A stretch of DNA of 28,184 nucleotides from a virus. The translations under genes and the position numbers were made by a program. The notes beneath the pieces were generated by a model. That model did no database searches. It was given only the letters and a program-made list of their open reading frames with translations, and had not been told where the DNA came from. The first letter of the stretch is position 1, and each line of letters begins with the position of its first letter. Positions 2-10,916 of the stretch are shown in pieces. Location of the stretch: the IMG/VR virus record IMGVR_UViG_3300031857_001055, positions 1-28,184 of that record, one strand, 5' to 3'.

Positions 2-127
2 CGAAAAAAAATACTTGAATTATATTCTGAAAAGTCAATAGTTATAATGACAGAATTTAAAATGGCTATATCAGAAAAAATGATGTTTGAAATATTAATA
101 CGTGAAACCGATGCTGTGCGCAAATAA
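2..127 (+). CDS. C-terminal end of an unknown protein (partial)
   Basis: An open frame enters from the left edge and stops with TAA at 125-127, giving at least 41 residues. It contains in-frame ATG codons at 47, 62, 80 and 83, but the frame is open to the edge, so it is most simply the tail of a longer gene. The visible part is charged and probably helical (it ends in ILIRETDAVRK). I do not recognise a family. It overlaps the start of the NinG-like gene, the tight packing typical of phage operons, which supports it being real. No function can be assigned. Confidence 0.45.
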   Translation, partial: RKKILELYSEKSIVIMTEFKMAISEKMMFEILIRETDAVRK

Positions 128-680
128 AGAATGTAACCAGGGAAATTTTGGAAAGCGAAAGAGATTTGAACCTGTGCGGGGAGAAAAGGTATGCTGCATT
201 GAATGTTCATTGGCTGTTATTCGCTCGAAAACTTACGTCAGAAAGCACGAAAAAGAAATTAGGCTTAGTAATGCTATAAAAAAGAAAAATATACTTGAGA
301 AGCTAGAAACGCATTCAGATTGGTTGAAGAAATTGCAAAAGGTATTTAATACTTACATCCGTAAAAGGGATAAAAACAAAAGGTGTATTAGCTGTCAAAC
401 ACCATTAAATGGTAGAAAATTCGATGCAGGACATTGTTATTCAGTTGGTGCATATCCTAACCTAAGATTCAATGAAAACAACGTTCATGGGCAATGTGTA
501 CACTGCAACCAACATAAGCATGGCAATATTCACGAATACATGAGCAATCTACCTATTGTTATTGGGGATGAAGCATTTGAAAGGCTACAAGAAAAAAGGA
601 ATGAACCTTTAAAATTATCAATACCAGAAATCAAAGAGTTAATCGAGATTTATAAGCAAAAAGTAAAAGCTTATTTATAA
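111..680 (+). CDS. ninG: NinG/Rap-family recombination endonuclease
   Basis: This protein matches the phage lambda NinG (Rap) family, which promotes recombination by acting on branched DNA intermediates. Numbered from ATG 111 it has an N-terminal cysteine cluster (C3, C8, C28/C29, C32), a lysine-rich helical linker (about 40-90), and then the diagnostic C-terminal block: CxxC at C92/C95, DAGH at 105-108, LRF at 118-120, NVHGQC ending at C129, and HCN with C132. This block is the HNH-like metal-binding core of NinG, and the 189-residue length fits the family. An in-frame GTG at 102 would add three residues; I prefer the ATG because it shortens the overlap with the upstream gene and ATG is the usual start, but the sequence does not settle this. 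Its stop codon lies inside the palindrome of the regulatory module that follows. Confidence 0.85.
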   Translation: MLCANKECNQGNFGKRKRFEPVRGEKVCCIECSLAVIRSKTYVRKHEKEIRLSNAIKKKNILEKLETHSDWLKKLQKVFNTYIRKRDKNKRCISCQTPLNGRKFDAGHCYSVGAYPNLRFNENNVHGQCVHCNQHKHGNIHEYMSNLPIVIGDEAFERLQEKRNEPLKLSIPEIKELIEIYKQKVKAYL

Positions 681-744
681 TGATTATAAATTAGGATTAT
701 TTTTGATACATGTATTTCATATATCAAAATACGGTGTATATTTG
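673..744 (+). promoter_or_regulatory. Regulatory module copy 1: palindrome, inverted repeat, -7 box
   Basis: A perfect palindrome, ATTTATAA-TGA-TTATAAAT, spans 673-691. Eleven bases after its start-to-end block comes an AT-rich inverted repeat, TTTGATA (702-708) paired with TATCAAA (722-728), with GTATTTC at 712-718 inside it. A Bacteroidota -7 box, TATATTTG, lies at 737-744. The same parts occur at 2338-2409 and 5199-5270 with identical spacing: 29 bases from palindrome start to TTTG and 64 bases to the -7 box. No TTG is present at the usual -33 distance, which suggests dependence on an activator or a phage-modified polymerase (inference). It would drive the gene at 776 with an mRNA leader of about 25-30 bases. 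Confidence 0.75.
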
Positions 745-775
745 CCTTCGAAATAATAACTAACAAATTAAAATC

Positions 776-988
776 ATGACAATTTCACTTACAGAACAAG
801 ACATCGAAATCATTGAAACAAATCATAGAACTAAAGCAAGCAATATAACAATAGTTAGCAAAGAATTAGATGTGAACGGAAAAATGTATTTGTGCGAAAT
901 ATCACCAAGCACGCCAACAACTATGTTTGAATTGGGTAAGATAGTTGGTAGGTCAAAAGAATATGAATTAAAAAAACATTTAGCTTAA
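776..988 (+). CDS. Small unknown phage protein (70 aa)
   Basis: The first gene behind regulatory module copy 1 encodes a 70-residue soluble protein with no signal peptide or membrane segment. The N-terminal third is acidic (LTEQDIEIIETNH) and the C-terminus basic (KEYELKKHLA). I recognise no family. ATG 776 is the only reasonable start: it lies 31 bases after the -7 box and is preceded by an A/T-rich segment ending in AAAATC. It probably opens the operon that continues with the genes at 1006, 1594, 1817 and 2119. Its position and dedicated promoter suggest an early protein, but no function is proposed. Confidence 0.6.
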   Translation: MTISLTEQDIEIIETNHRTKASNITIVSKELDVNGKMYLCEISPSTPTTMFELGKIVGRSKEYELKKHLA

Positions 989-1005
989 TTAATAATAAAA
1001 ACGAT

Positions 1006-1593
1006 ATGAATACAATAATTGAATTATTGAATGCAGCTGGTTACAAAAATAGTAATACTAACAAAGAAAGAGCAGTAAGGAACATGAATTTATTACTTAA
1101 TAGCGGAATTATGAAGTTAACATTAGTTGATGCTGAAGCTTATAATGCTAAAGAAAATGGTAGAGGTTTTTGGATGATGTGTAGTGATGGCAAAAAAAGA
1201 CCTACTGCATACAAAGTAACTTTATATGGTAAAACATACTATGGTCATTTAATGCAAAAAAGCCTTACAACAAAATTTAAGCACATCCAGCATATGGATT
1301 TAACTTGGGAGTATGCAACCAATACAGAGTACTACGATAATACATCTATTTCAATAAGTGATATTCAAACTCGTGTTGCTCAATTATTAACTATTATTCG
1401 TGAGGATAAAGATTTTTTTGCACCTAAATTGTTTGCTGCAAAAGGCGATTGCTCTTGCGGTAAATGTAATGGAGTTGGTATAATACCTGCATTTAGCTAT
1501 TATGCAAATGGGATATGTTTTGATTGCGGCGGTTCTGGTATAAATAGAAATTATTTAAAATCAATTGTTGATAACGCTATAAAAATTTCATAA
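1006..1593 (+). CDS. Unknown protein with paired DnaJ-like CxxCxGxG zinc motifs
   Basis: The protein has 195 residues. The N-terminal 140 residues resemble no family I know; they contain aromatic-rich segments (RGFWMMCSDGKKRPTAYKV) and a probable helix at about 110-130. The C-terminal part holds two copies of the DnaJ zinc-centre motif CxxCxGxG: C151-GK-C154-NGVG and C171-FD-C174-GGSG, with an extra cysteine at 149. Two such motifs could bind one zinc ion, as in a half DnaJ zinc domain. No J-domain (HPD) is visible, so this is not a complete DnaJ. It sits 17 bases after the gene at 776 and directly abuts the next gene (TAAATG). A nucleic-acid- or protein-binding adaptor role is possible but unproven. 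Confidence 0.65.
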   Translation: MNTIIELLNAAGYKNSNTNKERAVRNMNLLLNSGIMKLTLVDAEAYNAKENGRGFWMMCSDGKKRPTAYKVTLYGKTYYGHLMQKSLTTKFKHIQHMDLTWEYATNTEYYDNTSISISDIQTRVAQLLTIIREDKDFFAPKLFAAKGDCSCGKCNGVGIIPAFSYYANGICFDCGGSGINRNYLKSIVDNAIKIS

Positions 1594-1815
1594 ATGAAAA
1601 ATAAAAAAGAAATGAGAGGTGGAAAAAGACAAGGGGCAGGCAGAAAGGCAAGCCCCGATAAAATGGTAATGACATCTTTAAGACTACCGATTGAGGTAAA
1701 AAAAGGACTAACCACCAAAGAGAAGCGAGTTGTGCTTACTGAAGCTCACGATGAAAAGATGCGCGACTTATACGAGTGGTGCGAAAAAATGCTTAACAAA
1801 TTAAATTCAAAATAA
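1594..1815 (+). CDS. Small basic protein with GGKRQGAGRK motif
   Basis: A 73-residue protein with ATG immediately after the previous stop. Near its start it carries RGGKRQGAGRKA (about residues 8-19), a flexible basic Gly/Arg segment found at the N-termini of many phage and mobile-element DNA-associated proteins. The following MVMTSLRLPIEVKKGL resembles the strand-helix start of ribbon-helix-helix repressors (SLRLPxEV), but the rest (about 40-73, EAHDEKMRDLYEWCEKML) does not continue as a standard RHH protein. A DNA-binding role is a reasonable inference from these two features. The gene is part of the operon starting at 776, with a one-base gap to the next gene. Confidence 0.6.
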   Translation: MKNKKEMRGGKRQGAGRKASPDKMVMTSLRLPIEVKKGLTTKEKRVVLTEAHDEKMRDLYEWCEKMLNKLNSK

Positions 1816-1816
1816 G

Positions 1817-2122
1817 ATGAAAACTAAGACAATCAGTTACGTTAGCGGTAAGCTAGACCGCTCAATGACACCAACACAATCTACAACACAAATCGTGCGT
1901 GAAAAGCTAAAAAAAGCTATGATACATTTGGGTAAGGTAGTACTTTCAATGATGGAGAATGGCCAAAAGCAACTAATACGCATCGAGGGTGAGCGAATGA
2001 AGCACATCATCGAGGTGAGCCGAAGAAAGCGCACTAAGGTTATGTACAAACAGTGGGGCAACCCAGAACAAGACATCAATACGCAACAATTGATTAATGA
2101 TATTAGATTTGGAAGGCTATGA
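1817..2122 (+). CDS. Unknown basic phage protein (101 aa)
   Basis: A 101-residue, strongly basic protein with many Lys/Arg residues, including SRRKRTKVMYKQWG at about 70-83. ATG 1817 lies one base after the preceding stop, and the gene ends in an ATGA overlap with the next (2119-2122), so coupled translation is likely. No catalytic motif, membrane segment or known domain is visible. A frame on the opposite strand covers most of this gene, but it lacks the operon spacing seen here and is treated as a shadow. Function unknown; the basic charge would suit nucleic-acid binding. Confidence 0.55.
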   Translation: MKTKTISYVSGKLDRSMTPTQSTTQIVREKLKKAMIHLGKVVLSMMENGQKQLIRIEGERMKHIIEVSRRKRTKVMYKQWGNPEQDINTQQLINDIRFGRL

Positions 2123-2328
2123 ATTTTGACGAAACTCACAAAATAAGTATTGATGGTATTCCTTATACAGTGCATATCACAAAGCAATCAACTAAAGAAT
2201 GGAAGTTAACAGTATTTGAGGCAAGAAATATTCCAGATGTTTATAACCATACTCCTGAAAAGTGTATTAATTCGTTAAAGATGCAACTAGAGTCAAGAGG
2301 TAGAAGGTTTGAAATAATTAAAGTTTAA
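2119..2328 (+). CDS. Small unknown protein (69 aa)
   Basis: A 69-residue protein whose ATG overlaps the previous stop codon (ATGA). The pattern, with DETHKISIDGIPYTVHI near the start, then WKLTVFEARN and a C-terminal helix LKMQLESRGRRFEIIKV, suggests a small alpha/beta fold with a beta hairpin first. I recognise no family. It is the last gene of the operon that begins at 776; the next element downstream, about ten bases away, is regulatory module copy 2. Confidence 0.55.
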   Translation: MNFDETHKISIDGIPYTVHITKQSTKEWKLTVFEARNIPDVYNHTPEKCINSLKMQLESRGRRFEIIKV

Positions 2329-2337
2329 TAATTCCTT

Positions 2338-2409
2338 ATTTATAATGGTTATAAATTAGTATTTTTTTTGAATAAAGTATTTCATATATCAAAAATATAT
2401 GTACATTCG
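2338..2409 (+). promoter_or_regulatory. Regulatory module copy 2
   Basis: The palindrome ATTTATAA-TGG-TTATAAAT spans 2338-2356. TTTGA at 2367-2371 pairs with TCAAA at 2389-2393, with GTATTTCATATATC between them, and a -7-like box, TACATTCG, occupies 2402-2409. All distances equal those of copies 1 and 3 (29 and 64 bases from palindrome start). The -7 box deviates by one base from TAnnTTTG. It precedes the gene at 2438 by 28 bases. Confidence 0.72.
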
Positions 2410-2437
2410 CACTATCAAATTTAAAAACAAATACAAA

Positions 2438-2491
2438 ATGACAACTTTAATTCAAATTTTAAAATCAGAAACTCAATCTTTAAAAGAACAA
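2438..2491 (+). repeat. 54-bp leader-coding repeat, copy 1
   Basis: This coding start is nearly identical to 5291-5344: 49 of 54 bases match by eye. Three of the five differences are synonymous (ACT/ACA, TCT/TCA, TTA/TTG), one gives Ile/Val and one Gln/Glu at the end. With the upstream regulatory module it forms a duplicated cassette of promoter plus start of the reading frame. Confidence 0.8.
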
Positions 2492-2968
2492 TATCTTTTA
2501 AAAACTAAAGAATGGTCAATTAATTACTACAATTCTATTGAAGTTAAGAAGACATGGAAAGAAGTTGATTGGTGTAAGTATTTCAATTTAGAGCCAAGAG
2601 TTGCTAATGCTCATGGTCCAGCTAGTCAGCAATTTCTAACTTTCCCAAGTGGTTTTTATAACACTTCAAATTCGAAAGAATATAGAAAATTAAGAAATGA
2701 AATTCATAGCCTATTAACTATGGGTTTAGAAAAGTACATTGCTAAAGAATTGAAATACGCAGAAATGCACTATGAAACTAGCATTGAAAAGTTAGCATTT
2801 AGAATTGAAAAAAAAGGTCTTAACCAAGAAAAACTAAATGTTGTTACATCGCACATTGGTATTAATATCAATACTACTTTAACAGATGGCGATAAAATAG
2901 TAAGAGCATTCACAATAATCGCAGAGGGTGAAATACAAAGGCCACATTATCGCTATCTTATAAAATAG
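2438..2968 (+). CDS. Unknown early protein with the MTTLIQILKSETQSLKE N-terminus
   Basis: The protein has 176 residues. I start it at ATG 2438 although the frame is open from 2399: the 2438 start gives an N-terminus matching that of the protein at 5291 (MTTL[I/V]QILKSETQSLKE), and 2399 would lie inside the promoter module. After the shared leader come an aromatic-rich section (KEWSINYYNSIEVKKTWKEV), a polar region, and a charged helical stretch at about 80-135. No known domain was recognised. It is a stand-alone gene: module copy 2 lies directly upstream, and three hairpins including a terminator-like one follow. The stop codon lies inside a 10-bp stem hairpin. Function unknown. Confidence 0.65.
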   Translation: MTTLIQILKSETQSLKEQYLLKTKEWSINYYNSIEVKKTWKEVDWCKYFNLEPRVANAHGPASQQFLTFPSGFYNTSNSKEYRKLRNEIHSLLTMGLEKYIAKELKYAEMHYETSIEKLAFRIEKKGLNQEKLNVVTSHIGININTTLTDGDKIVRAFTIIAEGEIQRPHYRYLIK

Positions 2969-2974
2969 CGATAA
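2947..2974 (+). other. Perfect 10-bp hairpin across a stop codon
   Basis: TTATCGCTAT at 2947-2956 pairs perfectly with ATAGCGATAA at 2965-2974 around an 8-base loop. The stop codon of the gene at 2438 (TAG, 2966-2968) sits in the right arm. No T-run follows, so it is not an intrinsic terminator by itself. Protection of the 3' mRNA end or part of a larger structured RNA is possible. Confidence 0.6.
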
Positions 2975-2981
2975 AAATCTC

Positions 2982-2999
2982 ACCCTATTAGTACAGGGT
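2982..2999 (+). other. Short hairpin ACCCT/AGGGT
   Basis: ACCCT (2982-2986) pairs with AGGGT (2995-2999) around an 8-base loop. It lies between the stop-codon hairpin and the terminator-like hairpin and is one of the few GC-containing patches in this AT-rich region. Confidence 0.45.
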
Positions 3000-3004
3000 T
3001 GACA

Positions 3005-3027
3005 GGCTGGAAAGACAGCCATTTTTT
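3005..3027 (+). terminator. Rho-independent terminator-like hairpin
   Basis: GGCTG (3005-3009) pairs with CAGCC (3016-3020) around GAAAGA, and ATTTTTT follows at 3021-3027. The GC-rich stem plus T-run fits an intrinsic terminator for the gene at 2438. The next gene begins only 21 bases later without a clear promoter, so readthrough (attenuation) is likely if that gene is expressed from module copy 2. Confidence 0.65.
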
Positions 3028-3047
3028 AAAAATAAAATACTTCAAAA

Positions 3048-3323
3048 ATGAATATACTTCAAAAAGCAAATGAAATAGTCAATGAACGTACAGAAGAAAA
3101 AGAAAGAATGTACGGACCATTTGAAGAAGGAATGGAAAAAGCAGCAATAATAGCTTCTGCCATGTCTAGTAAGTTATTTTCTGCAGAAGACATATATGTA
3201 TGTCTTATAGCATTAAAATTGTCCAGAGCGTCTTATAATTACAAAGAAGACAACTATTTGGATTGTGTTGCATATTTAGGTGCACTTAATAATCATATAA
3301 TCAATAAAAATAATAAAAAATGA
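3048..3323 (+). CDS. DUF6378-like phage protein
   Basis: A 91-residue helical protein. Its layout fits the DUF6378 family common in phages: an N-terminal helix ANEIVNERTEEKER, the YG turn (MYGPFEEGMEKAA), a middle helix ending in the LKLSRASYN segment (K-x-x-R), and a C-terminal D-N-x-x-D-x-x-x-Y-L pattern (DNYLDCVAYLGAL). The helical arrangement with acidic residues resembles the all-alpha pyrophosphohydrolase (MazG-like) class, but the EExxE signature is absent. Biochemical function is unknown. It opens a gene group of nucleotide-related enzymes, and its stop overlaps the next start (ATGA, 3320-3323). Confidence 0.6.
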   Translation: MNILQKANEIVNERTEEKERMYGPFEEGMEKAAIIASAMSSKLFSAEDIYVCLIALKLSRASYNYKEDNYLDCVAYLGALNNHIINKNNKK

Positions 3324-4213
3324 AAACAGGAATAGTTGGAATACTAAACAACCCAGCAACATCAATGAACTCACATTCTGCTGGCATGAATAAGATAGTA
3401 GCTTCATTGTTTAATGCAAATTTATTAAGTCATGTAGATAATTGGGAAGAATATGACCAATTGATAATTTATCATGGCCCTAATTTTAAAGAAGGTAGTT
3501 ACAATGTCATTGGTGGAATAACAATTGAAGTTTTAATAAGAGCAAAAAAACTATCTCAATTCAAAGGCATCATTAAAACTTTAGATGGTTTCCAGTTAAA
3601 TGATTTTTCTATTAAAAGGAAAATTAACTTATACAATGATTTTACTATAATAGAAAAAATTGAATTGCCATTTATGGAAAACATGGTAATTGGTGATTCA
3701 CATTCTTTGTCAGTTTGGCCAAATGAAAATTATGGTATTTCAAGAAATGATGGAAAGACTTTATTTGGCTTTCTTAAGTTAGAAAAGGATTTAAGTTTGC
3801 ATAGTCATGTTATACTTTACTTTGGAAATATTGACATACGTTTCCATTTGTGTAGACAGTTAGACCCAATTAATGCTACCAAAGAATTATTTACTAGGTA
3901 TGTAGAATATGCTAAAAAGTACAATTGCACTTTAGTTGAATTATTACCAATTGAAGATGAAAGTAGAAAACTTCCTGCAAGTGGACTTTATAAAGGCAAA
4001 CCATTTTATGGAAGTATTGACCAAAGGAAACAAATAAGAGAAATAGCTAATGAAATAATTAGAAACTCTGGATTGGATTATTTAAGTTGGCCGGATGAAT
4101 TTTTAGATGAAAAAGGCAATTTAAAATTTGATGTAATGGAACCAAAACAATCAGTTCATTTAAGACCATCATATTATTTAAAAAACTTTAAAAAGCAACT
4201 AAATTTATTTTAA
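3320..4213 (+). CDS. SGNH-hydrolase-like protein, possible DNA-modification factor
   Basis: The protein has 297 residues. The centre contains a block I-like signature of SGNH/GDSL hydrolases, VIGDSHSLSVWP, with GDS at 125-127 as candidate nucleophile. YFGNIDIRFHL follows (G169, N170), in the place where the family has its oxyanion Gly and Asn, and a C-terminal SVHLRPSYY offers H280 as the catalytic base. The spacing supports a single SGNH domain at about 120-295. The first 115 residues are a separate unknown region with no signal peptide, so a cytoplasmic role is likely. Known SGNH enzymes are esterases and lipases, but here the neighbours are MazG-like, thymidylate-synthase-like and hypermodification-like proteins, so a role on nucleotides or modified DNA is inferred. 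The next gene starts one base after its stop. The true reaction is unknown. Confidence 0.6.
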   Translation: MKTGIVGILNNPATSMNSHSAGMNKIVASLFNANLLSHVDNWEEYDQLIIYHGPNFKEGSYNVIGGITIEVLIRAKKLSQFKGIIKTLDGFQLNDFSIKRKINLYNDFTIIEKIELPFMENMVIGDSHSLSVWPNENYGISRNDGKTLFGFLKLEKDLSLHSHVILYFGNIDIRFHLCRQLDPINATKELFTRYVEYAKKYNCTLVELLPIEDESRKLPASGLYKGKPFYGSIDQRKQIREIANEIIRNSGLDYLSWPDEFLDEKGNLKFDVMEPKQSVHLRPSYYLKNFKKQLNLF

Positions 4214-4214
4214 A

Positions 4215-5192
4215 ATGGAAAATTACAATACGAAAGCTCTTGAATGCTTAGATTACTACATTGAAATTTGCAGGAAAACAGAAAAAGTATTTATAGATAC
4301 AAAGAAAAGAGTGTTTAATACTGGAGACAAATACATCGATAATGTTTTCTTATTTCACAACATAGATAGAAGGTATGAAGGTTTTATATTTTTATTAGAA
4401 GATTACTTTATGCAAGAAAAATCACTAACGTGGGATATTTACAAATTTAAGGCTAATGCAAATTGGAACCATTATGATTATCTTTTTTTAATTTATGCGC
4501 ATAGGATATTTGGTTCAGGTACATCAAATCAATTTAACCATGGTTACAATAACACAATATTAGATAAATTTCAATACTATGAATCGTATGAAGAATTTAT
4601 GGACTTTATGTTAAGTAGCAATACAAATTTTGTTAGTTGTTGTGTTAATCAACCGCCAAGATATCCATTAAAGAATTTAGTAAAAACACATTTTAGAACA
4701 TGGGCTGATTATGTAATTAAAAACGTAAAAGGAACTATGTCTATAAAAGACATTGTAAATGTTATGAATAGTTATAACAAAGAAAACAATTTGCACGCTT
4801 TTAATTTCCATTACTTACTCATGGCTGGTGACATAGCAAACTATGTGAATTTAGACACTAAAATAAAAGGTCTATTAACAATAAATGAATGGAGCGAGTG
4901 TAATTTAGGACCAACATCTATGGCATCTATGAAGATTTTAAAGAAAAGTTATAAATACTCAGACTTTGAAAAACTATGTGAAAGGTATAATATGAAACCA
5001 ATAGATTTTGAGGACCTTTTATGTGTTTGGTTAAAATACATAAAAAATCCAATATGGAATTATTACATACAACCTAGCCATAGTTTTTCAGATTTTGAAA
5101 ATGGATGGGATATTGTAGAAAAACACAAAAGTTATTATCAATTCAAGAATAATTTTGGTAAACAATTACAACTAAAATTAGTAAATAGCTAA
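4215..5192 (+). CDS. Putative thymine-hypermodification helical protein (HMUDK-helical / aGPT-pyrophosphorylase-like)
   Basis: The protein has 325 residues, is almost wholly helical and rich in aromatics. Three spaced motifs resemble the helical domain shared by phage 5-hmdU DNA kinases and alpha-glutamyl/putrescinyl-thymine pyrophosphorylases: an N-x-x-R/D cluster FLFHNIDRRYEG at about 45-56; WSECNLGPTSMASMKIL at 226-242, comparable to the family's GPG-containing helix-turn; and DFEDLLCVWLKYIKNP at 264-279, comparable to its (D/E)-x-E-x-x-LCE-x-x-KY segment. In those systems such proteins activate or substitute 5-hydroxymethyluracil in DNA. No P-loop is visible, so it would be the pyrophosphorylase-like type and not a full kinase. 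The match was made by eye and is remote. It sits directly behind the SGNH-like gene and upstream of MazG-like and TS-like genes, which fits this reading. The family call is tentative. Confidence 0.45.
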   Translation: MENYNTKALECLDYYIEICRKTEKVFIDTKKRVFNTGDKYIDNVFLFHNIDRRYEGFIFLLEDYFMQEKSLTWDIYKFKANANWNHYDYLFLIYAHRIFGSGTSNQFNHGYNNTILDKFQYYESYEEFMDFMLSSNTNFVSCCVNQPPRYPLKNLVKTHFRTWADYVIKNVKGTMSIKDIVNVMNSYNKENNLHAFNFHYLLMAGDIANYVNLDTKIKGLLTINEWSECNLGPTSMASMKILKKSYKYSDFEKLCERYNMKPIDFEDLLCVWLKYIKNPIWNYYIQPSHSFSDFENGWDIVEKHKSYYQFKNNFGKQLQLKLVNS

Positions 5193-5198
5193 TTCTTT

Positions 5199-5270
5199 AT
5201 TTGTAATGATTACAAATTACAATTATTTTTGATTAAAGTATTTCATATATCAAAAGTTGGTGTACATTAG
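5199..5270 (+). promoter_or_regulatory. Regulatory module copy 3, with compensated palindrome
   Basis: The palindrome ATTTGTAA-TGA-TTACAAAT spans 5199-5217. Relative to copies 1 and 2 both arms have changed (A to G left, T to C right), so symmetry is kept. TTTGA at 5228-5232 pairs with TCAAA at 5250-5254, and TACATTAG (5263-5270) takes the -7 position. Spacing is identical to the other copies. The gene at 5291 begins 20 bases later. Confidence 0.75.
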
Positions 5271-5290
5271 CACTCAACAAACAAACAGAT

Positions 5291-5344
5291 ATGACAACTT
5301 TAGTTCAAATTTTAAAATCAGAAACACAATCATTGAAAGAAGAA
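5291..5344 (+). repeat. 54-bp leader-coding repeat, copy 2
   Basis: Second copy of the coding repeat at 2438-2491. Most differences are synonymous, which points to selection on the 17-residue peptide and not only on the DNA. Confidence 0.8.
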
Positions 5345-5629
5345 ATGAGTATTATTTCAAACGAAAATCGTTATGAAATAATTGACCAACAACAAACCAA
5401 CAAATCGTTAGATAATATATTAGATGCTATTCAATTATTAAATAACAATGGTTTAAAACTTACAACAGAAGATGAGACTGGTCACTATTCAGGTGGATAT
5501 AATTATATTAATTCTATGTATGTTAATAGCCCACTATCGTTTGATGTATTGATAAAAAAAGCTAATGATGTTTTATTTAAAAATAATATGGAACATTTAA
5601 GAATAGTTAAAGTAAATCCTTTTTTATAA
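5291..5629 (+). CDS. Unknown early protein sharing the MTTLVQILKSETQSLKE leader
   Basis: A 112-residue protein. Its first 17 residues repeat those of the protein at 2438 with one conservative change; the remainder is unrelated to that protein. The middle is Asn/Gln/Asp-rich (NILDAIQLLNNNGLKL), followed by HYSGGYNYINSMYVN and a hydrophobic/basic end. No known domain, membrane segment or catalytic motif is visible. Regulatory module copy 3 lies directly upstream, so it is probably made at the same time as the products of 776 and 2438. Function unknown. Confidence 0.6.
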   Translation: MTTLVQILKSETQSLKEEMSIISNENRYEIIDQQQTNKSLDNILDAIQLLNNNGLKLTTEDETGHYSGGYNYINSMYVNSPLSFDVLIKKANDVLFKNNMEHLRIVKVNPFL

Positions 5630-5718
5630 TAATTAACACAATTTTTAAAACAAATATCATAATGAAAGGCGTAAAAAGAAAAAATTTAACAAATAACAAT
5701 AAATAATAATTAGGCAAA

Positions 5719-6060
5719 ATGAAATTAAAAAACGAATTCCAACAGATTAGAGAGTGGGCAAATGAAAGAGGTATTTATGAAAAAGGTGACGTAAAAACCC
5801 AATTCATAAAGTTAACAGAAGAGGTGGGTGAATTATCTAGGGCCATTTTAAAAGAAGATGAAGATGAAATGATAGATGCTATAGGTGATATTGTAATTGT
5901 ATTGACTAATCTCACGCATTTAGCAAAATTATACAAAGATAATGCAACTAAAACAGCATGGGAGAATGTAACAATTGAAGACTGTATCAATTCTGCGTAT
6001 TCTGTCATAGCAAAAAGAACAGGTAAAATGGAAAATGGAACTTTTGTAAAAAACTCATAA
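5719..6060 (+). CDS. MazG-like nucleotide pyrophosphohydrolase
   Basis: A 113-residue all-alpha NTP-PPase of the MazG-like class. The metal-binding signature is clear: KLTEEVGELSRAI gives E34, E35 and E38 (EExxE), and DEDEMIDAIGDIVIVL gives E50-x-x-D53 and D57. Such enzymes hydrolyse (d)NTPs to monophosphates and pyrophosphate. In phages they often remove an unwanted dNTP so that a modified nucleotide can replace it, or adjust host alarmone levels. The size matches single-domain phage MazG homologues. It lies in the block with the TS-like enzyme (6306), two bases before the next gene, so a role in the nucleotide pool for DNA modification is a fair inference. Substrate specificity cannot be read from the sequence. 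Confidence 0.85.
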   Translation: MKLKNEFQQIREWANERGIYEKGDVKTQFIKLTEEVGELSRAILKEDEDEMIDAIGDIVIVLTNLTHLAKLYKDNATKTAWENVTIEDCINSAYSVIAKRTGKMENGTFVKNS

Positions 6061-6061
6061 T

Positions 6062-6316
6062 ATGAAAGCTATACTAACAAAAATAGATAATCCAAGAATG
6101 TCAAAACATGGAGGAGAATTCACAAGAGTGTATTTTAAATCTATTCCTGAAAATAAGACTTATAGACTTGATGTCTATACGAATCACACGCTGTCTAATA
6201 GATTTCTTCCATTTATAAAAACTCAAGCAATATTTGATGGTTTAGAAATTTATAAAAACAATATTATAAATGGTTGTTGCAACTTTAGATATTTAGGCAT
6301 AAAAAATGGTATTTAG
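6062..6316 (+). CDS. Small unknown protein upstream of the TS-like enzyme (84 aa)
   Basis: An 84-residue protein with alternating hydrophobic and polar stretches (KAILTKIDNPRMS, FTRVYFKS, YRLDVYTN), suggesting a mainly beta fold. No membrane segment or known motif is visible. The gene starts two bases after the MazG-like gene and overlaps the TS-like gene by 11 bases in a different frame, so translation of the two is probably coupled. Possibly a small binding or accessory protein of the nucleotide module; unrecognised. Confidence 0.55.
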   Translation: MKAILTKIDNPRMSKHGGEFTRVYFKSIPENKTYRLDVYTNHTLSNRFLPFIKTQAIFDGLEIYKNNIINGCCNFRYLGIKNGI

Positions 6317-6941
6317 TAATGCACAAGAAGCGTTTGAATTTTATTATAATGAAATATCAAACCATGGATTAATATTAGACAACACTAAGTTTATTCAAAA
6401 TATTGGTTTTTATATCAATAATCCACTTGACAATAAGATAAATACAGAATTCAGAAACTGGAAAAACTCTTATGCTGAATTAGAATGGGATTGGTATTTA
6501 TCTGAAAATAGAAATGTGTCAGAAATAAAAAAACATGCCAAAATATGGGACAAAATGCATAATGGCAACAACATAGTGAATTCAAATTATGGTTATCAAT
6601 GGAACAGAAATGGACAACTAGATTTCGTTATTAAAGAATTAACAACTAATCCTAATTCAAGAAGAGCTGCTATAACAATATATGATGGAAAAGAACACAT
6701 AGAACATAGTTTCGATACACCATGCACATTAAGTATTGTTTTTAATATAACCAATAACAAATTAAACATGACAGTCTTAATGCGCTCTAATGACTTGTGG
6801 TATGGATTCTGTAATGACCAATACTGTTTTAGTAAATTACAAGAGATGGTTACCACTAAACTCAATTTAGAAATAGGTTGGTATTATCATTTCGCTAATA
6901 ATTTACATCTATATGATAACAAGTTAAACAAAAACCAATAA
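6306..6941 (+). CDS. Thymidylate-synthase-family nucleotide (hydroxymethyl)transferase
   Basis: A 211-residue member of the thymidylate synthase (TS) superfamily. Recognisable landmarks are E60 in the AELEWDWYL segment (catalytic Glu), YGYQW at 95-99, SRR at 118-120 (phosphate-binding arginines), the catalytic cysteine C140 in TPC, MRSND at 159-163, and HLY at 201-203. At the position where TS has Asn selecting dUMP, this protein has Asp171, as in T4 dCMP hydroxymethylase. The N-terminal RTGT phosphate loop of classical TS is missing, and the protein is shorter than bacterial TS (about 264). These points favour a hydroxymethylase making hmdCMP or hmdUMP over a plain thymidylate synthase. It closes the nucleotide block, and a promoter-like box for the packaging genes follows the stop. 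Confidence 0.8.
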   Translation: MVFSNAQEAFEFYYNEISNHGLILDNTKFIQNIGFYINNPLDNKINTEFRNWKNSYAELEWDWYLSENRNVSEIKKHAKIWDKMHNGNNIVNSNYGYQWNRNGQLDFVIKELTTNPNSRRAAITIYDGKEHIEHSFDTPCTLSIVFNITNNKLNMTVLMRSNDLWYGFCNDQYCFSKLQEMVTTKLNLEIGWYYHFANNLHLYDNKLNKNQ

Positions 6942-6946
6942 TTGTT

Positions 6947-6954
6947 TACATTTG
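6947..6954 (+). promoter_or_regulatory. -7 promoter box before the terminase genes
   Basis: TACATTTG matches the Bacteroidota -7 consensus TAnnTTTG exactly and is followed by CA. It lies in the 35-base gap between the TS-like gene and the small terminase gene, 22 bases before ATG 6977. No TTG occurs at the usual upstream distance. It marks the likely switch from early/middle to late genes. Confidence 0.5.
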
Positions 6955-6976
6955 CATGATAACAAATTGAAACAAA

Positions 6977-7462: not shown

Positions 7463-8591
7463 GCTTCTTAAACTAACCAATCGTAAGAAGGTAGTACAAG
7501 GTGGGACAAGTGCTGGTAAGACATACGCTATTTTGCCAATCCTTATTGACAAAGCAGCTAAGACACCACGTTTAGTGATAACGGTTGTTGCCGAGTCAAT
7601 TCCTGCGGTTCGGAATGGGGCTGTGAGGATATTCCAAGATGTAATGCATGACACTAACAGGTGGATTGAAGACCATTGGAGGGCCAACCCCATGGAATAT
7701 AAGTTCAGCAACGGCTCAATTATTCAGTTCACTTCATTCGATACGCAAGGCAAAGCCAAAGCAAGCGGCAAACGTGACATCCTATTTATCAATGAAGCAA
7801 ATCATATTTCATTCGAGATTGCTGATGCTTTAATGGTAAGGTCTAATGAAATATGGATTGACTTCAACCCCGACAATGAGTTCTGGGCACACACAGAGGT
7901 AGTAACAGAAACTAACTCTGATTTCATAATACTTACCTACCACGATAATGAAGCCATACCACCCGAAATAAAGAAGGAGTTAGAGCTAAAGCAAGAGAAA
8001 GCAAAGACATCCGACTATTGGGCCAATTGGTGTAAGGTGTATATTGATGGCCAAATAGGTACTTTGCAAGGTGCTATCTTTCAAAATTGGAGGGTCGGTG
8101 AATTTGACAGTTCATTGCCTCATGTTTATGGCTTGGATTTTGGGTTTAGTAATGACCCAGATTCTCTTATAAAGGTAGCCGTCGACAAAAAAAGAAATCT
8201 AATCTATGCTCAAGAAATATTCTATAAGACAGGAAATTCAACTGAACAACTAATCCAACTACTAAGAACAAACGTGCTACCTAGCAACTCACTAATAGTA
8301 GCAGACAGCGCCGACCCTAGAACTATCAATGACTTACGAATAAAGAACTTGAACGCAATGCCAGCGACCAAAGGACCAGACAGCGTAAGGAATGGAATAA
8401 AGCGAATACAAGATTATGAAATAGTGGTTACTTCTGACTCATTAAACTTAATCAAGGAACTACGCAACTATGTTTGGCATGATAAGCGGTCAGAGATGCC
8501 AATCGACGCCTTTAATCATCAGATAGACCCTTTACGATATGCATTTGATAAATTAGTTCCGCAATCTTCACTTTATATTTCTGGAATGTGA
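7434..8591 (+). CDS. terL: Terminase large subunit (packaging ATPase-nuclease)
   Basis: A 385-residue packaging motor of the PBSX/Terminase_3 type. The ATPase domain has Walker A GGTSAGKT at 23-30, Walker B ILFINE ending in catalytic E121, and a DFNPD segment at 143-147. The RNase H-like nuclease domain follows with acidic residues at D235 (YGLDFGF), D291 (IVADSADP) and the C-terminal HQIDPLRYA segment. It cuts concatemeric DNA and pumps it into the prohead. It is slightly compact compared with the 410-450 residues common in the family, but all key motifs are present. ATG 7434 is chosen because it leaves a normal lead to the Walker A motif; it overlaps the small-subunit gene. Confidence 0.95.
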   Translation: MFRRTTSINKLLKLTNRKKVVQGGTSAGKTYAILPILIDKAAKTPRLVITVVAESIPAVRNGAVRIFQDVMHDTNRWIEDHWRANPMEYKFSNGSIIQFTSFDTQGKAKASGKRDILFINEANHISFEIADALMVRSNEIWIDFNPDNEFWAHTEVVTETNSDFIILTYHDNEAIPPEIKKELELKQEKAKTSDYWANWCKVYIDGQIGTLQGAIFQNWRVGEFDSSLPHVYGLDFGFSNDPDSLIKVAVDKKRNLIYAQEIFYKTGNSTEQLIQLLRTNVLPSNSLIVADSADPRTINDLRIKNLNAMPATKGPDSVRNGIKRIQDYEIVVTSDSLNLIKELRNYVWHDKRSEMPIDAFNHQIDPLRYAFDKLVPQSSLYISGM

Positions 8592-8592
8592 T

Positions 8593-8623
8593 TACATTTG
8601 CAATTAAAAATATATTAGTTTTG
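8593..8623 (+). promoter_or_regulatory. Two -7-type boxes before the portal gene
   Basis: TACATTTG (8593-8600) and TAGTTTTG (8616-8623) both match TAnnTTTG. The second ends five bases before ATG 8629, so transcripts from it would have almost no leader. The spacer between the TTG of the first box and the second is 15 bases, slightly shorter than the usual Flavobacterium spacing. Either could drive the head genes. Confidence 0.5.
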
Positions 8624-8628
8624 CAGAC

Positions 8629-9900
8629 ATGAATTTATATCAACGTATAAAATCGGCAGTCACTACCAAAGGAATGACAATGCCATTGACCGAACGCGAT
8701 AGAAGGGTAATTTGGCAATTCTTAGGCGGATGGATGCCGTTGAACTTTCAGAATAACTTTATCAATCAAGTAAATGCTGGTTACTCACAGAATGTTGATG
8801 TTTATGCAATCGTAAAAAAAATAACCGATGTTTCTAAGTCTATACCTTGGATAATTGAAAAGAAACTAAACAACGGCACTTGGAAACAATTAGAAGATAC
8901 AACCGTTCATGAGTTGATGTATTCACCTAACAATGCAAAAGGATATACATGGAACGATATAGAAGAACAAACATTGCTTTACTTACTTATAACTGGGAAT
9001 ACTTATCTAGTAGGTAACACGCAGTTTAATTCGTCATTGATAGAGGAACTCGATGTGTTACCTACGCAATCCGTTAACATCCTCAATCGCAATTCTGACT
9101 TCTTTTTACCACTATTAGAATACCAATTCAGCTATGGTTCAAGTGCTAGGATATACAGCAAGAATGACTTATGCCATATCAAGTTCTTTAATCCTAACTT
9201 AGAAAGATATTACTATGGACTTTCACCTATTCAAGTGGCAGCTAATGTTGTTCATGTAGGCAATGAGAGATGGGAGGCAGATGCCTCAATCCTATCAAAT
9301 AGGGGCGTTAGTGGTATTATTGGCGATAAGTCACAGCTACCAATGACATCAGATGAAGCGCAAGTTGTTGATGACTCGCTAAAGGGTAGAATAGGAGGCT
9401 CACATAAATATGGTGGTATAATTGTAAGCAATAAAGACTTAACCTATACCAACATTGCAATGAGTAGCGCGGACTTAGAGTTACTTAAAAAAGGAGTTGT
9501 AACAACTAGGACATTATGCAATGTTATGGGTTTAGATAGCTCACTATTTAATGACCCAGACAATAAGACTTATAACAATAGGTTAGAAGCAGAGAAAGCA
9601 ATGTATACTAATTGCATCATTCCTTTATCTGATAAAATGAGTGAAGCTTACACATCATTTATTTGCAAAAATCATTTTCCAAATCAGAATGTAAGAATGC
9701 GTCAAGACTTTAGTAAGGTGGAATGCCTGCAAGAAAACCTAAAAGAAAAGGCTCAAATACTTCAAGACTTCAAGACTAAAGGCATTTATACGGCAAATGA
9801 GGTGCGTCAAAAGATGGGAGAATCGAAAAGCGACGACCCAAATGCAGATATTTTAATCATAAACACCACGGCCGTTGAAAATATTTCTACAACGAATTAA
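8629..9900 (+). CDS. Portal protein (HK97 type)
   Basis: A 423-residue portal protein that forms the ring at one capsid vertex through which DNA enters and leaves. Family features include VDVYAIVKKITDVSKSIPW near residue 50, TVHELMYSPNNAKGYTW with the following helix EEQTLLYLLITGNTYL, an LDVLPTQSVNIL strand, HIKFFNPN and the YYYGLSPIQVAANVV segment. A C-terminal helical crown follows (LEAEKAMYTN, IYTANEVRQKMGE). Length and order behind terL are typical. The start at 8629 is fixed by the -7 boxes and the short gap upstream. Confidence 0.92.
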   Translation: MNLYQRIKSAVTTKGMTMPLTERDRRVIWQFLGGWMPLNFQNNFINQVNAGYSQNVDVYAIVKKITDVSKSIPWIIEKKLNNGTWKQLEDTTVHELMYSPNNAKGYTWNDIEEQTLLYLLITGNTYLVGNTQFNSSLIEELDVLPTQSVNILNRNSDFFLPLLEYQFSYGSSARIYSKNDLCHIKFFNPNLERYYYGLSPIQVAANVVHVGNERWEADASILSNRGVSGIIGDKSQLPMTSDEAQVVDDSLKGRIGGSHKYGGIIVSNKDLTYTNIAMSSADLELLKKGVVTTRTLCNVMGLDSSLFNDPDNKTYNNRLEAEKAMYTNCIIPLSDKMSEAYTSFICKNHFPNQNVRMRQDFSKVECLQENLKEKAQILQDFKTKGIYTANEVRQKMGESKSDDPNADILIINTTAVENISTTN

Positions 9901-9908
9901 AAAAAGAT

Positions 9909-9916
9909 TAATTTTG
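9909..9916 (+). promoter_or_regulatory. -7 box before the mini-gene and protease
   Basis: TAATTTTG fits TAnnTTTG. It ends five bases before ATG 9922, the same spacing as the second box before the portal gene and close to that at 14633-14640. No -33 TTG at normal distance is evident, so it is a weak candidate. Confidence 0.35.
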
Positions 9917-9921
9917 TAGCG

Positions 9922-10002
9922 ATGAAAACGAAATCGAAAGGCGAATTAGATGCTATTATCAAGCAAACGGAAGTTAAAAAAGGTAAAATAGTGAAGAAAT
10001 GA
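9922..10002 (+). CDS. Mini-gene, 26-residue basic peptide
   Basis: A 26-residue frame, MKTKSKGELDAIIKQTEVKK and a further KGKIVKK-type ending. It fills the gap between the portal and protease genes, and its TGA overlaps the protease ATG (ATGA, 9999-10002), as seen at true gene junctions in this genome. Ten of 26 residues are lysine. The alternatives are a translational coupling leader for the protease or chance. No function known. Confidence 0.4.
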   Translation: MKTKSKGELDAIIKQTEVKKGKIVKK

Positions 10003-10916
10003 GTATAAAGTCGGTATATTTTCCAAATAAAGAGTTCAGCACAAAGAGTGAGTTGATTGAGGCTATCGTAAAGGATGAGACTAAAATCAAAGCATTAAAA
10101 AAGGCCGAAGTTATCTACTCACACGAACGCAATCACATTTCAGCTATCAACTTAAAGCTAAAGGCGAATGCAACTAAAGCCCTTACTATTGAAGATGGTT
10201 ACATTTACCCTGTTATATCTACAACTAATTACATGGACTCGCACGGTGACGTTCACATCAATGGGTGCTTCAAGAAGACCGTACAAGAGCAACAGGGAAA
10301 AATACTATACTGCAAGAATCACGAAATAAGAGTAGGCTCAATCATTGCATGGCAGTCAGATGTTGAGATGATGATTAGCACATTGGCATTTAGTGAGCTT
10401 GGAAAAGACTATGCTGGCAATACTGAATGTTTGATTTTTAAGATTGACAAAGAAGCCATTGCAGATGATGAAGCAGAAGACATCATTGAGAAAAACAGAC
10501 CAGTTCAGAATAGCATAAGAATGCAGTATGTGACATTCTTTACTTGCATAGACGATAAAAGACCCGAATACAAAGAGTACAAAGCTAATTGGGACAAATA
10601 TTATCCTTTCATTGCTAATAAAGAGGTAGCAGATGCAGAGGGTTATTTTTGGGCCGTTACTGAATTAAAGATTAGAGAGGAAGGTTCAATGGTTGTTAAA
10701 GGTAGCAACGATGCAACGCCGATATTACAGATACCAGAGCCCGAAGAAGAATGTTCTAACTGTGGTGAAACTATGATGGGAGACTACTGTAGTGGATGTG
10801 GAACGCCAAGAAAGAAAACAAGTGCGCCGTCAGTTGACACGCAAGTTGATATAGAAGCCGCGAAAGCACTAAAGAAAAAAGAATTTTTTATTAATTTAAT
10901 CCAATCAAAAAAATGA
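9999..10916 (+). CDS. Prohead maturation protease with C-terminal zinc ribbon
   Basis: A 305-residue protein placed between portal and capsid genes, where HK97-type phages encode the prohead protease. The core matches that family: VISTTNYMDSHGDV (about 72-85), the ILYCKNHE segment with candidate catalytic H108, QNSIRMQY with candidate Ser172, and ELKIREEGSMVVKGSNDAT (222-240), equivalent to the family's conserved final strand pair. It cleaves the scaffolding part of the capsid protein during maturation. Unusually, a zinc ribbon, C252-x-x-C255 and C264-x-x-C267 (CSNCGETMMGDYCSGCGTP), follows the protease core, then a lysine-rich tail. This makes the protein about 80 residues longer than usual. 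The tail may be a scaffold or docking element. It overlaps the capsid gene by ATGA. Confidence 0.82.
   Translation: MSIKSVYFPNKEFSTKSELIEAIVKDETKIKALKKAEVIYSHERNHISAINLKLKANATKALTIEDGYIYPVISTTNYMDSHGDVHINGCFKKTVQEQQGKILYCKNHEIRVGSIIAWQSDVEMMISTLAFSELGKDYAGNTECLIFKIDKEAIADDEAEDIIEKNRPVQNSIRMQYVTFFTCIDDKRPEYKEYKANWDKYYPFIANKEVADAEGYFWAVTELKIREEGSMVVKGSNDATPILQIPEPEEECSNCGETMMGDYCSGCGTPRKKTSAPSVDTQVDIEAAKALKKKEFFINLIQSKK

Follow-up and report, generated by a model that had tools for sequence, protein, structure and literature searches.

A recurrent promoter-like module at the ninG/late-gene junction of a phage genome, with an inverted repeat over its -33 position and a Fur-box-like palindrome upstream

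The virus record IMGVR_UViG_3300031857_001055 of IMG/VR, probably from a virus of Bacteroidetes and analysed here over its 28,184 bases (the window), contains three copies of a 72-bp module that runs from the start of a 19-bp palindrome to the end of a -7 box, and the question raised by this locus is what such a module does in front of three genes and which protein reads it. With roughly even confidence, we interpret it as a portable promoter of the Bacteroidetes sigma-A type, seated at the junction of ninG and the late genes and equipped with an inverted repeat on its -33 position and with an optional upstream palindrome that is likely bound by a Fur-family protein of the host.

The palindromes start at 673, 2338 and 5199, and in every module TTTG lies 29 bp from that start and a -7-like box of 8 bp lies 64 bp from it, in agreement with an earlier note on this DNA that described three copies with this 29/64 geometry. 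The 17-mer GTATTTCATATATCAAA is invariant across the modules (712, 2377, 5238); a scan of the window allowing up to three mismatches finds no match beyond them, and none of 20 Markov-simulated windows contains a 17-mer present three times, although an invariant run of 17 bp is only mildly unusual given 55/72 invariant columns (about 9% by permutation). Ungapped, the copies are pairwise identical at 58-60 of 72 positions and, judged from this alignment, modules 1-3 are homologous duplicates. Because they are duplicates, constant spacing is expected, and the earlier argument that exact spacing implies constraint is not supported. The palindrome is perfect in modules 1 and 3 and has one broken pair in module 2, and in module 3 the two arms have changed in step relative to module 1. 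In all three modules, an upstream stop codon lies within ~10 nt of the palindrome. Between modules 2 and 3 the similarity continues through the leader and ~18 codons into the downstream gene, while module 1 shares the regulatory part only.

Beyond the window, one viral contig is nearly identical to it, and four more diverged contigs (L030, L028/L111, L110 and L112) have the proximal part, in unchanged geometry, at the ninG end, where module 1 stands; the proposed regulatory promoter module is, in this respect, conserved in relatives at equivalent positions. L030 and L028/L111 bear the palindrome as ATTTAGAATGATTATAAAT. A sequence-only model of the proximal part retrieves one copy per relative record, plus a further copy in the relative G011 (L184:914-960). 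With module 1 at the boundary of ninG and the late genes, and with the other two modules in morons that precede terS and terL, this distribution lends no support to the small early regulon formerly envisaged, and the gene positions instead suggest delayed-early or late expression. A relaxed module pattern has no match in 84,980 prokaryote genomes and, therefore, the module is not a common host promoter. The exact 17-mer, searched in viral contigs, mostly hits unrelated coding DNA, and Muminvirus phages have the same ninG-terS order with no module there.

Promoters of sigma-ABfr, the Bacteroidetes sigma factor, combine a -33 TTTG with a -7 TAHHTTTG and start transcription 4-5 nt past the -7 element (PMC6847099). 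The box of module 1, TATATTTG, fits TAHHTTTG exactly, and the boxes of modules 2 and 3 each depart from it at one letter, the seventh. With the last G of the box placed at -5 (PMC6847099), transcripts are predicted to start at ~749, ~2414 and ~5275. At the -33 place, the window reads GTATTTCA, as opposed to GTATTGCA in nearly all relatives, with the variants GTACTGCA in L112 and GTATTGCG in L083; the relatives thus show TTG or CTG at -34 to -32, 19 bp before the -7 box, and the three window modules show TTT in place of the TTTG or TTG of a sigma-ABfr promoter. Since natural promoters have a weak -33 element, reported as “much less evident” than the -7 element in a survey of Flavobacterium johnsoniae promoters (PMC6847099), a TTT leaves function as a sigma-ABfr promoter possible, and the decayed element does not point to a modified polymerase. 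The lack of a -33 TTG noted earlier holds for the window, whereas the activator or modified polymerase deduced from it does not follow, as relatives have the TTG and a weak -33 is ordinary. A scan for E. coli-type promoters is uninformative (59 found, 45 expected).

Superimposed on the -33 position is an inverted repeat whose half-sites, TTTGAT and ATCAAA, are 21 bp apart centre to centre (two helical turns) and symmetric about -33. In a set of 15 modules or module-like promoters, collected with a search pattern that left columns 8 and 28 free, the axis of this repeat is sharp, with 96 of 120 cells paired, compared with 39-66 on the axes next to it; moreover, columns 8 and 28 read G-C, A-T or T-A in 12 of the 15 (shuffle p 0.002, and 0.024 after dereplication). 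The covariation is the stronger argument, because sequence conservation alone adds to the axis count. A phage regulator is possible for this site. An ordinary promoter, duplicated together with AT-rich, UP-like DNA and served by no specific regulator, would explain the identity of the copies at 58-60/72 positions as well as the AT-richness, given that F. johnsoniae promoters normally have AT-rich motifs at -18 and -28 (PMC6847099). We nonetheless regard it as improbable, in view of the conservation in diverged relatives whose other intergenic DNA differs, of the paired changes in the two palindrome arms of module 3, of the covariation in the -33 repeat, and of an enrichment of the upstream palindrome over composition-matched palindromic controls, set out below.

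The distal palindrome resembles a known operator. The Fur box of Riemerella anatipestifer is ATTTAGAATTATTCTAAAT, and Fur-regulated sites are listed for this species (PMC5609570); 17/19 letters are identical to it in L030 and L028 and 16/19 in module 1. A matrix built from six of the published sites, with no phage sequence included, ranks module 1 first among all window positions (18.2), module 2 second and module 3 fourth, and places the palindromes of L030 and L028 at the top of their own loci (20.4, next best 6.7 and 10.6). No site like module 1 is expected by chance in 28 kb, and the match to the flavobacterial Fur box exceeds chance in modules 1 and 2, L030 and L028. No FUR-domain protein is found in 18 phage records, including the window, with a search that is positive in 13/14 control genomes. 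Owing to the Fur-box match and to the lack of a FUR domain in these records, the palindrome is more plausibly the site of a host regulator than of a phage one.

The same matrix was applied to 2.1 Mb of mostly Bacteroidetes phage DNA, where palindromes of this kind precede consensus promoters far more often than column-permuted controls do. In a first set of 965 kb, comprising the window, its relatives and named phages with redundancy removed, 10 sites score at least 16, against a mean of 1.2 and a maximum of 6 for 60 palindromic control matrices with permuted columns; palindromes upstream of a consensus promoter number 9, 6 and 4 at thresholds 12, 14 and 16, compared with 1.28, 0.53 and 0.13 for the controls. 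A second set of 645 kb, including ten further named phages, yields 2 such palindromes at threshold 14 and again 2 at threshold 16, versus 0.17 and 0.05; its match in mymlan, at threshold 12, is homologous to that of hattifnatt. At threshold 14, eight palindromes lie upstream of promoters and two downstream, and the upstream offsets are 25, 25, 53, 54, 64, 64, 75 and 76, of which 53-54, 64 and 75-76 are one helical turn apart. Offsets above 40 are phased at 10.5 bp (Rayleigh p 0.002-0.013 depending on the set), with the period and the set picked after the first data. The repressor-like offset of 25 occurs only at sites of phage G018. At the same distance from the palindrome start, TATTTTTG in module 1 (698-705) and module 3 (5224-5231) also fits the -7 consensus, and a tandem promoter with the palindrome in a repressor position is possible there on the basis of these letters. 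Palindromes upstream of predicted promoters also occur in isolated phages, namely Flavobacterium phage hattifnatt (L178, 6859 and 20660), Cellulophaga phage phi10:1 (L249, ~9214-9232) and Elizabethkingia phage TCUEAP1 (L180, 7154), which makes the Fur hypothesis testable in cultured phage-host pairs.

Matrix rank, enrichment and phasing agree with the earlier idea that a regulator acts at the palindrome as an upstream operator, although not with the phage origin assigned to that regulator. The simplest reading would be a host Fur-family protein at -57, -67 or -78 on one face of the helix, since it fits the sequence, the position and the absence of a phage-encoded Fur. The phased upstream sites suggest activation through contact with RNA polymerase, and repression by wrapping or looping may also occur; an operator laid over the core promoter, as expected for plain repression, is not what is seen in the modules, with the palindrome centred at ~-67. 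A broader version, in which many Bacteroidetes phages place such an operator upstream of sigma-A promoters at fixed helical phases, 54, 64 or 75 bp from the -7 box, host iron or peroxide gates late and moron transcription, and one lineage made a portable cassette of it, is rather doubtful.

Several points weigh against assigning the palindrome to a host Fur-family protein. The expectation that relatives would carry the whole motif is borne out for the proximal part, whereas L110, L112 and L184 keep the promoter part without the palindrome, which is hence optional. The palindrome of module 3 is at chance level against the Fur matrix, and this matrix derives from six sites of one species, which may not be the host's, with electrophoretic mobility shift assays for only some of the promoters. 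A centre at -67 is not the classical repressing position of Fur, and the Fur family was picked post hoc among possible regulators. Lastly, the independent phased sites are few (5-11), and two of the data sets underlying the joint test include members of this clade.

The main rival is a phage-encoded middle or late activator or repressor that binds the operators of the portable sigma-A cassette, with the Fur likeness arising by convergence on an AT-rich palindrome. It would agree with copies that track phage genes and not host genes (no prokaryote genome matches), with an early region, the expected location of a regulator, that falls outside the window, with the variant arms TTTAATA/TATTAAA of L165 and L174, which look like regulator co-evolution, and with the G018 palindromes at offset 25. 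Conversely, the presence of the palindrome in unrelated phages with differing gene sets (hattifnatt, mymlan, TCUEAP1, phi10:1, L090 and L075) favours a shared host factor, and far fewer sites are found with column-permuted palindromes matched in composition. We consider such a phage protein a possible but unlikely owner of the site.

A 4.6-kb segment of morons between g2119 and terS, lacking in L030, L028 and L110, contains modules 2 and 3. Of its genes, g3048, g3320, g4215, g5719 and g6306 are syntenic in L098, minus both genes directly behind modules 2 and 3, and a homologue of the module-3 gene is carried by L108, a 117-kb contig. The further copy in G011 precedes a radC-like moron inserted two genes after g1817, and in L112 this radC-like gene has no module of its own and is part of the module-1 operon. 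The comparisons of the segment, of L098 and of L107/L108 indicate that the promoter and the attached gene start are copied or exchanged as units. T4-type phages reportedly have cassettes of this kind, termed PeSL and said to have been described by Arbiol in 2010 and Comeau in 2014. If the module were such a cassette, a stem-loop terminator plus promoter serving mainly the shuffling of genes by homologous recombination, this would account for palindromes so close to the upstream stop codons, for copies that flank inserted genes, with a leader and 18 codons common to modules 2 and 3, and for another copy before another moron in G011; repetition at the boundaries of shuffled genes is indeed found, as modules 2 and 3 and the G011 copy precede inserted genes. 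The stem-loop terminator, however, is not: the A/T-only hairpin is no more stable than shuffles (z -0.44, -0.62 and -1.86), no intrinsic terminator is called at the palindrome, three relatives' modules do without it, and its distance and phase to the downstream promoter are kept, which is needless for a terminator. A primary role in recombination is accordingly given a low probability.

Under the favoured interpretation of a portable promoter with a host-read palindrome, each module would be a promoter cassette for the host primary sigma factor (sigma-ABfr type), in which the -33 TTG of the relatives has presumably decayed to TTT in all three window copies. Module 1 would be the ancestral copy at the ninG end, driving an operon that leads on to the genes for terminase and virion, and the other two modules would have arrived with, or been set before, the moron genes inserted ahead of terS, so that these newcomers may join the same transcription programme. 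A regulator at the -33 inverted repeat, the first operator, would compete with or contact RNA polymerase. At many but not all copies, a second operator, the 19-bp palindrome at ~-67, would be bound most likely by a host protein of Fur, PerR or Zur type acting from a fixed helix face, and the phage promoter could thereby respond to the iron or peroxide state of the host.

Table 1. Features of the three modules and of the genes around them (positions in the window)
Feature	Position	Strand	Remarks
Module 1 distal palindrome ATTTATAATGATTATAAAT	673..691	.	Fur-box-like, centre ~-67; overlaps ninG stop codon
Module 1 proximal inverted repeat TTTGAT-N15-ATCAAA	702..728	.	arms 702-707 and 723-728; axis on -33 position (715)
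Module 1 -33 position	715..717	+	TTT here; TTG in relatives
Module 1 -7 box TATATTTG	737..744	+	predicted start ~749-750
Module 2 palindrome ATTTATAATGGTTATAAAT	2338..2356	.	one pair broken
Module 2 proximal inverted repeat around -33 position	2367..2393	.	TTT 2380-2382
Module 2 -7 box TACATTCG	2402..2409	+	1 mismatch
Module 3 palindrome ATTTGTAATGATTACAAAT	5199..5217	.	both arms altered together
Module 3 proximal inverted repeat around -33 position	5228..5254	.	TTT 5241-5243
Module 3 -7 box TACATTAG	5263..5270	+	1 mismatch
ninG/Rap-type endonuclease gene	102..680	+	Pfam PF05766, E 2e-42; 3' end bears module 1; junction same in relatives
First gene behind module 1	776..988	+	70 amino acids, no assigned function; first gene varies between relatives
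Insertion carrying cargo and modules 2 and 3	2329..6976	+	not in relatives between g2119 and terminase genes; cargo partly syntenic in L098
Gene behind module 2	2438..2968	+	N-terminus MTTLIQILKSETQSLKE common to gene behind module 3
Gene behind module 3	5291..5629	+	body homologous in L107 and L108, there with other N-terminus and without module

The gene order of the window is ninG-terS-terL-portal-capsid-tail, and isolated Flavobacterium phages have a similar order near their ninG and terminase genes. The genes behind modules 2 and 3 begin with a common 18-residue N-terminus, MTTL[IV]QILKSETQSLKE (2438-2491 and 5291-5344), and continue with unrelated bodies; elsewhere, the body of the module-3 gene sits behind other N-terminal peptides, MKLTELRQIIREEI... 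and MKKSELKQIIKEEI... (L107:5349-5420; L108:5948-6010), and from their sequences these 18-residue N-termini look like exchangeable N-terminal tags. A terminator-like GC-rich hairpin followed by a T run (3005-3020) lies 3' of the module-2 gene. One gene after module 1, a 195-amino-acid protein (1006-1593) has a CxxC zinc-finger segment weakly like Q-type antiterminators; it was rejected as such, the match being weak and confined to the zinc finger, with no homologue in relatives. Likewise, the small protein g1594 (GAGR..MVMTSLRLP, encoded behind module 1 in relatives) was considered and dismissed as a ribbon-helix-helix autoregulator, as AlphaFold predicts one long C-terminal helix and no strands, at a predicted local distance difference test score (pLDDT) of 72, and Pfam gives no usable match for this protein. 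An RNA element was also discarded, since the module has no Rfam match and folds no better than shuffles. In L083, an apparent intein lies in frame within the large terminase gene (8040-10094; SCFVADTLITTDKGQ...FANGILVHNC).

Regulation in Bacteroidetes phages is poorly described in the literature found. If the host Fur-family site is real, these phages would read the metal or oxidative state of the cell by way of a host regulator, and this connection of host physiology with infection would be easy to test. In terms of known operators, module 1 contains letter for letter the sequence TTATAATNATTATAA, the consensus of the Bacillus subtilis PerR box. The palindrome is also like the R. anatipestifer Fur box (PMC5609570) in its 19-bp, 8-3-8 layout and in 16-17/19 letters; it stands ~67 bp upstream of a predicted phage promoter start and not over a metal-uptake promoter. 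With sigma-ABfr promoters (PMC6847099), the modules share the -7 box, the 19-bp spacing and, in the relatives, the -33 TTG, and the window copies depart from them in the -33 TTT and in the inverted repeat laid over it. Like lambdoid morons, the inserted genes come with their own promoter; the lambdoid moron promoter is foreign, whereas here the phage has duplicated its own promoter from the late junction. As far as the available parts of their descriptions go, the PeSL cassettes and the archaeal virus HGTV-1, which has a TATA-plus-inverted-repeat before most open reading frames of one side, resemble the module in joining a short promoter to an inverted repeat at the boundaries of variable or inserted genes. 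Within the same limits, the module differs from both in its promoter, which is of the Bacteroidetes sigma-A type, in its 1-3 copies per genome, and in a repeat that is A/T-rich, lacks terminator character and keeps its helical phase to the promoter. A portable promoter of this sort would show concretely how inserted genes can be integrated into the phage programme, parallel to the PeSL cassettes of T4 and found in another phylum.

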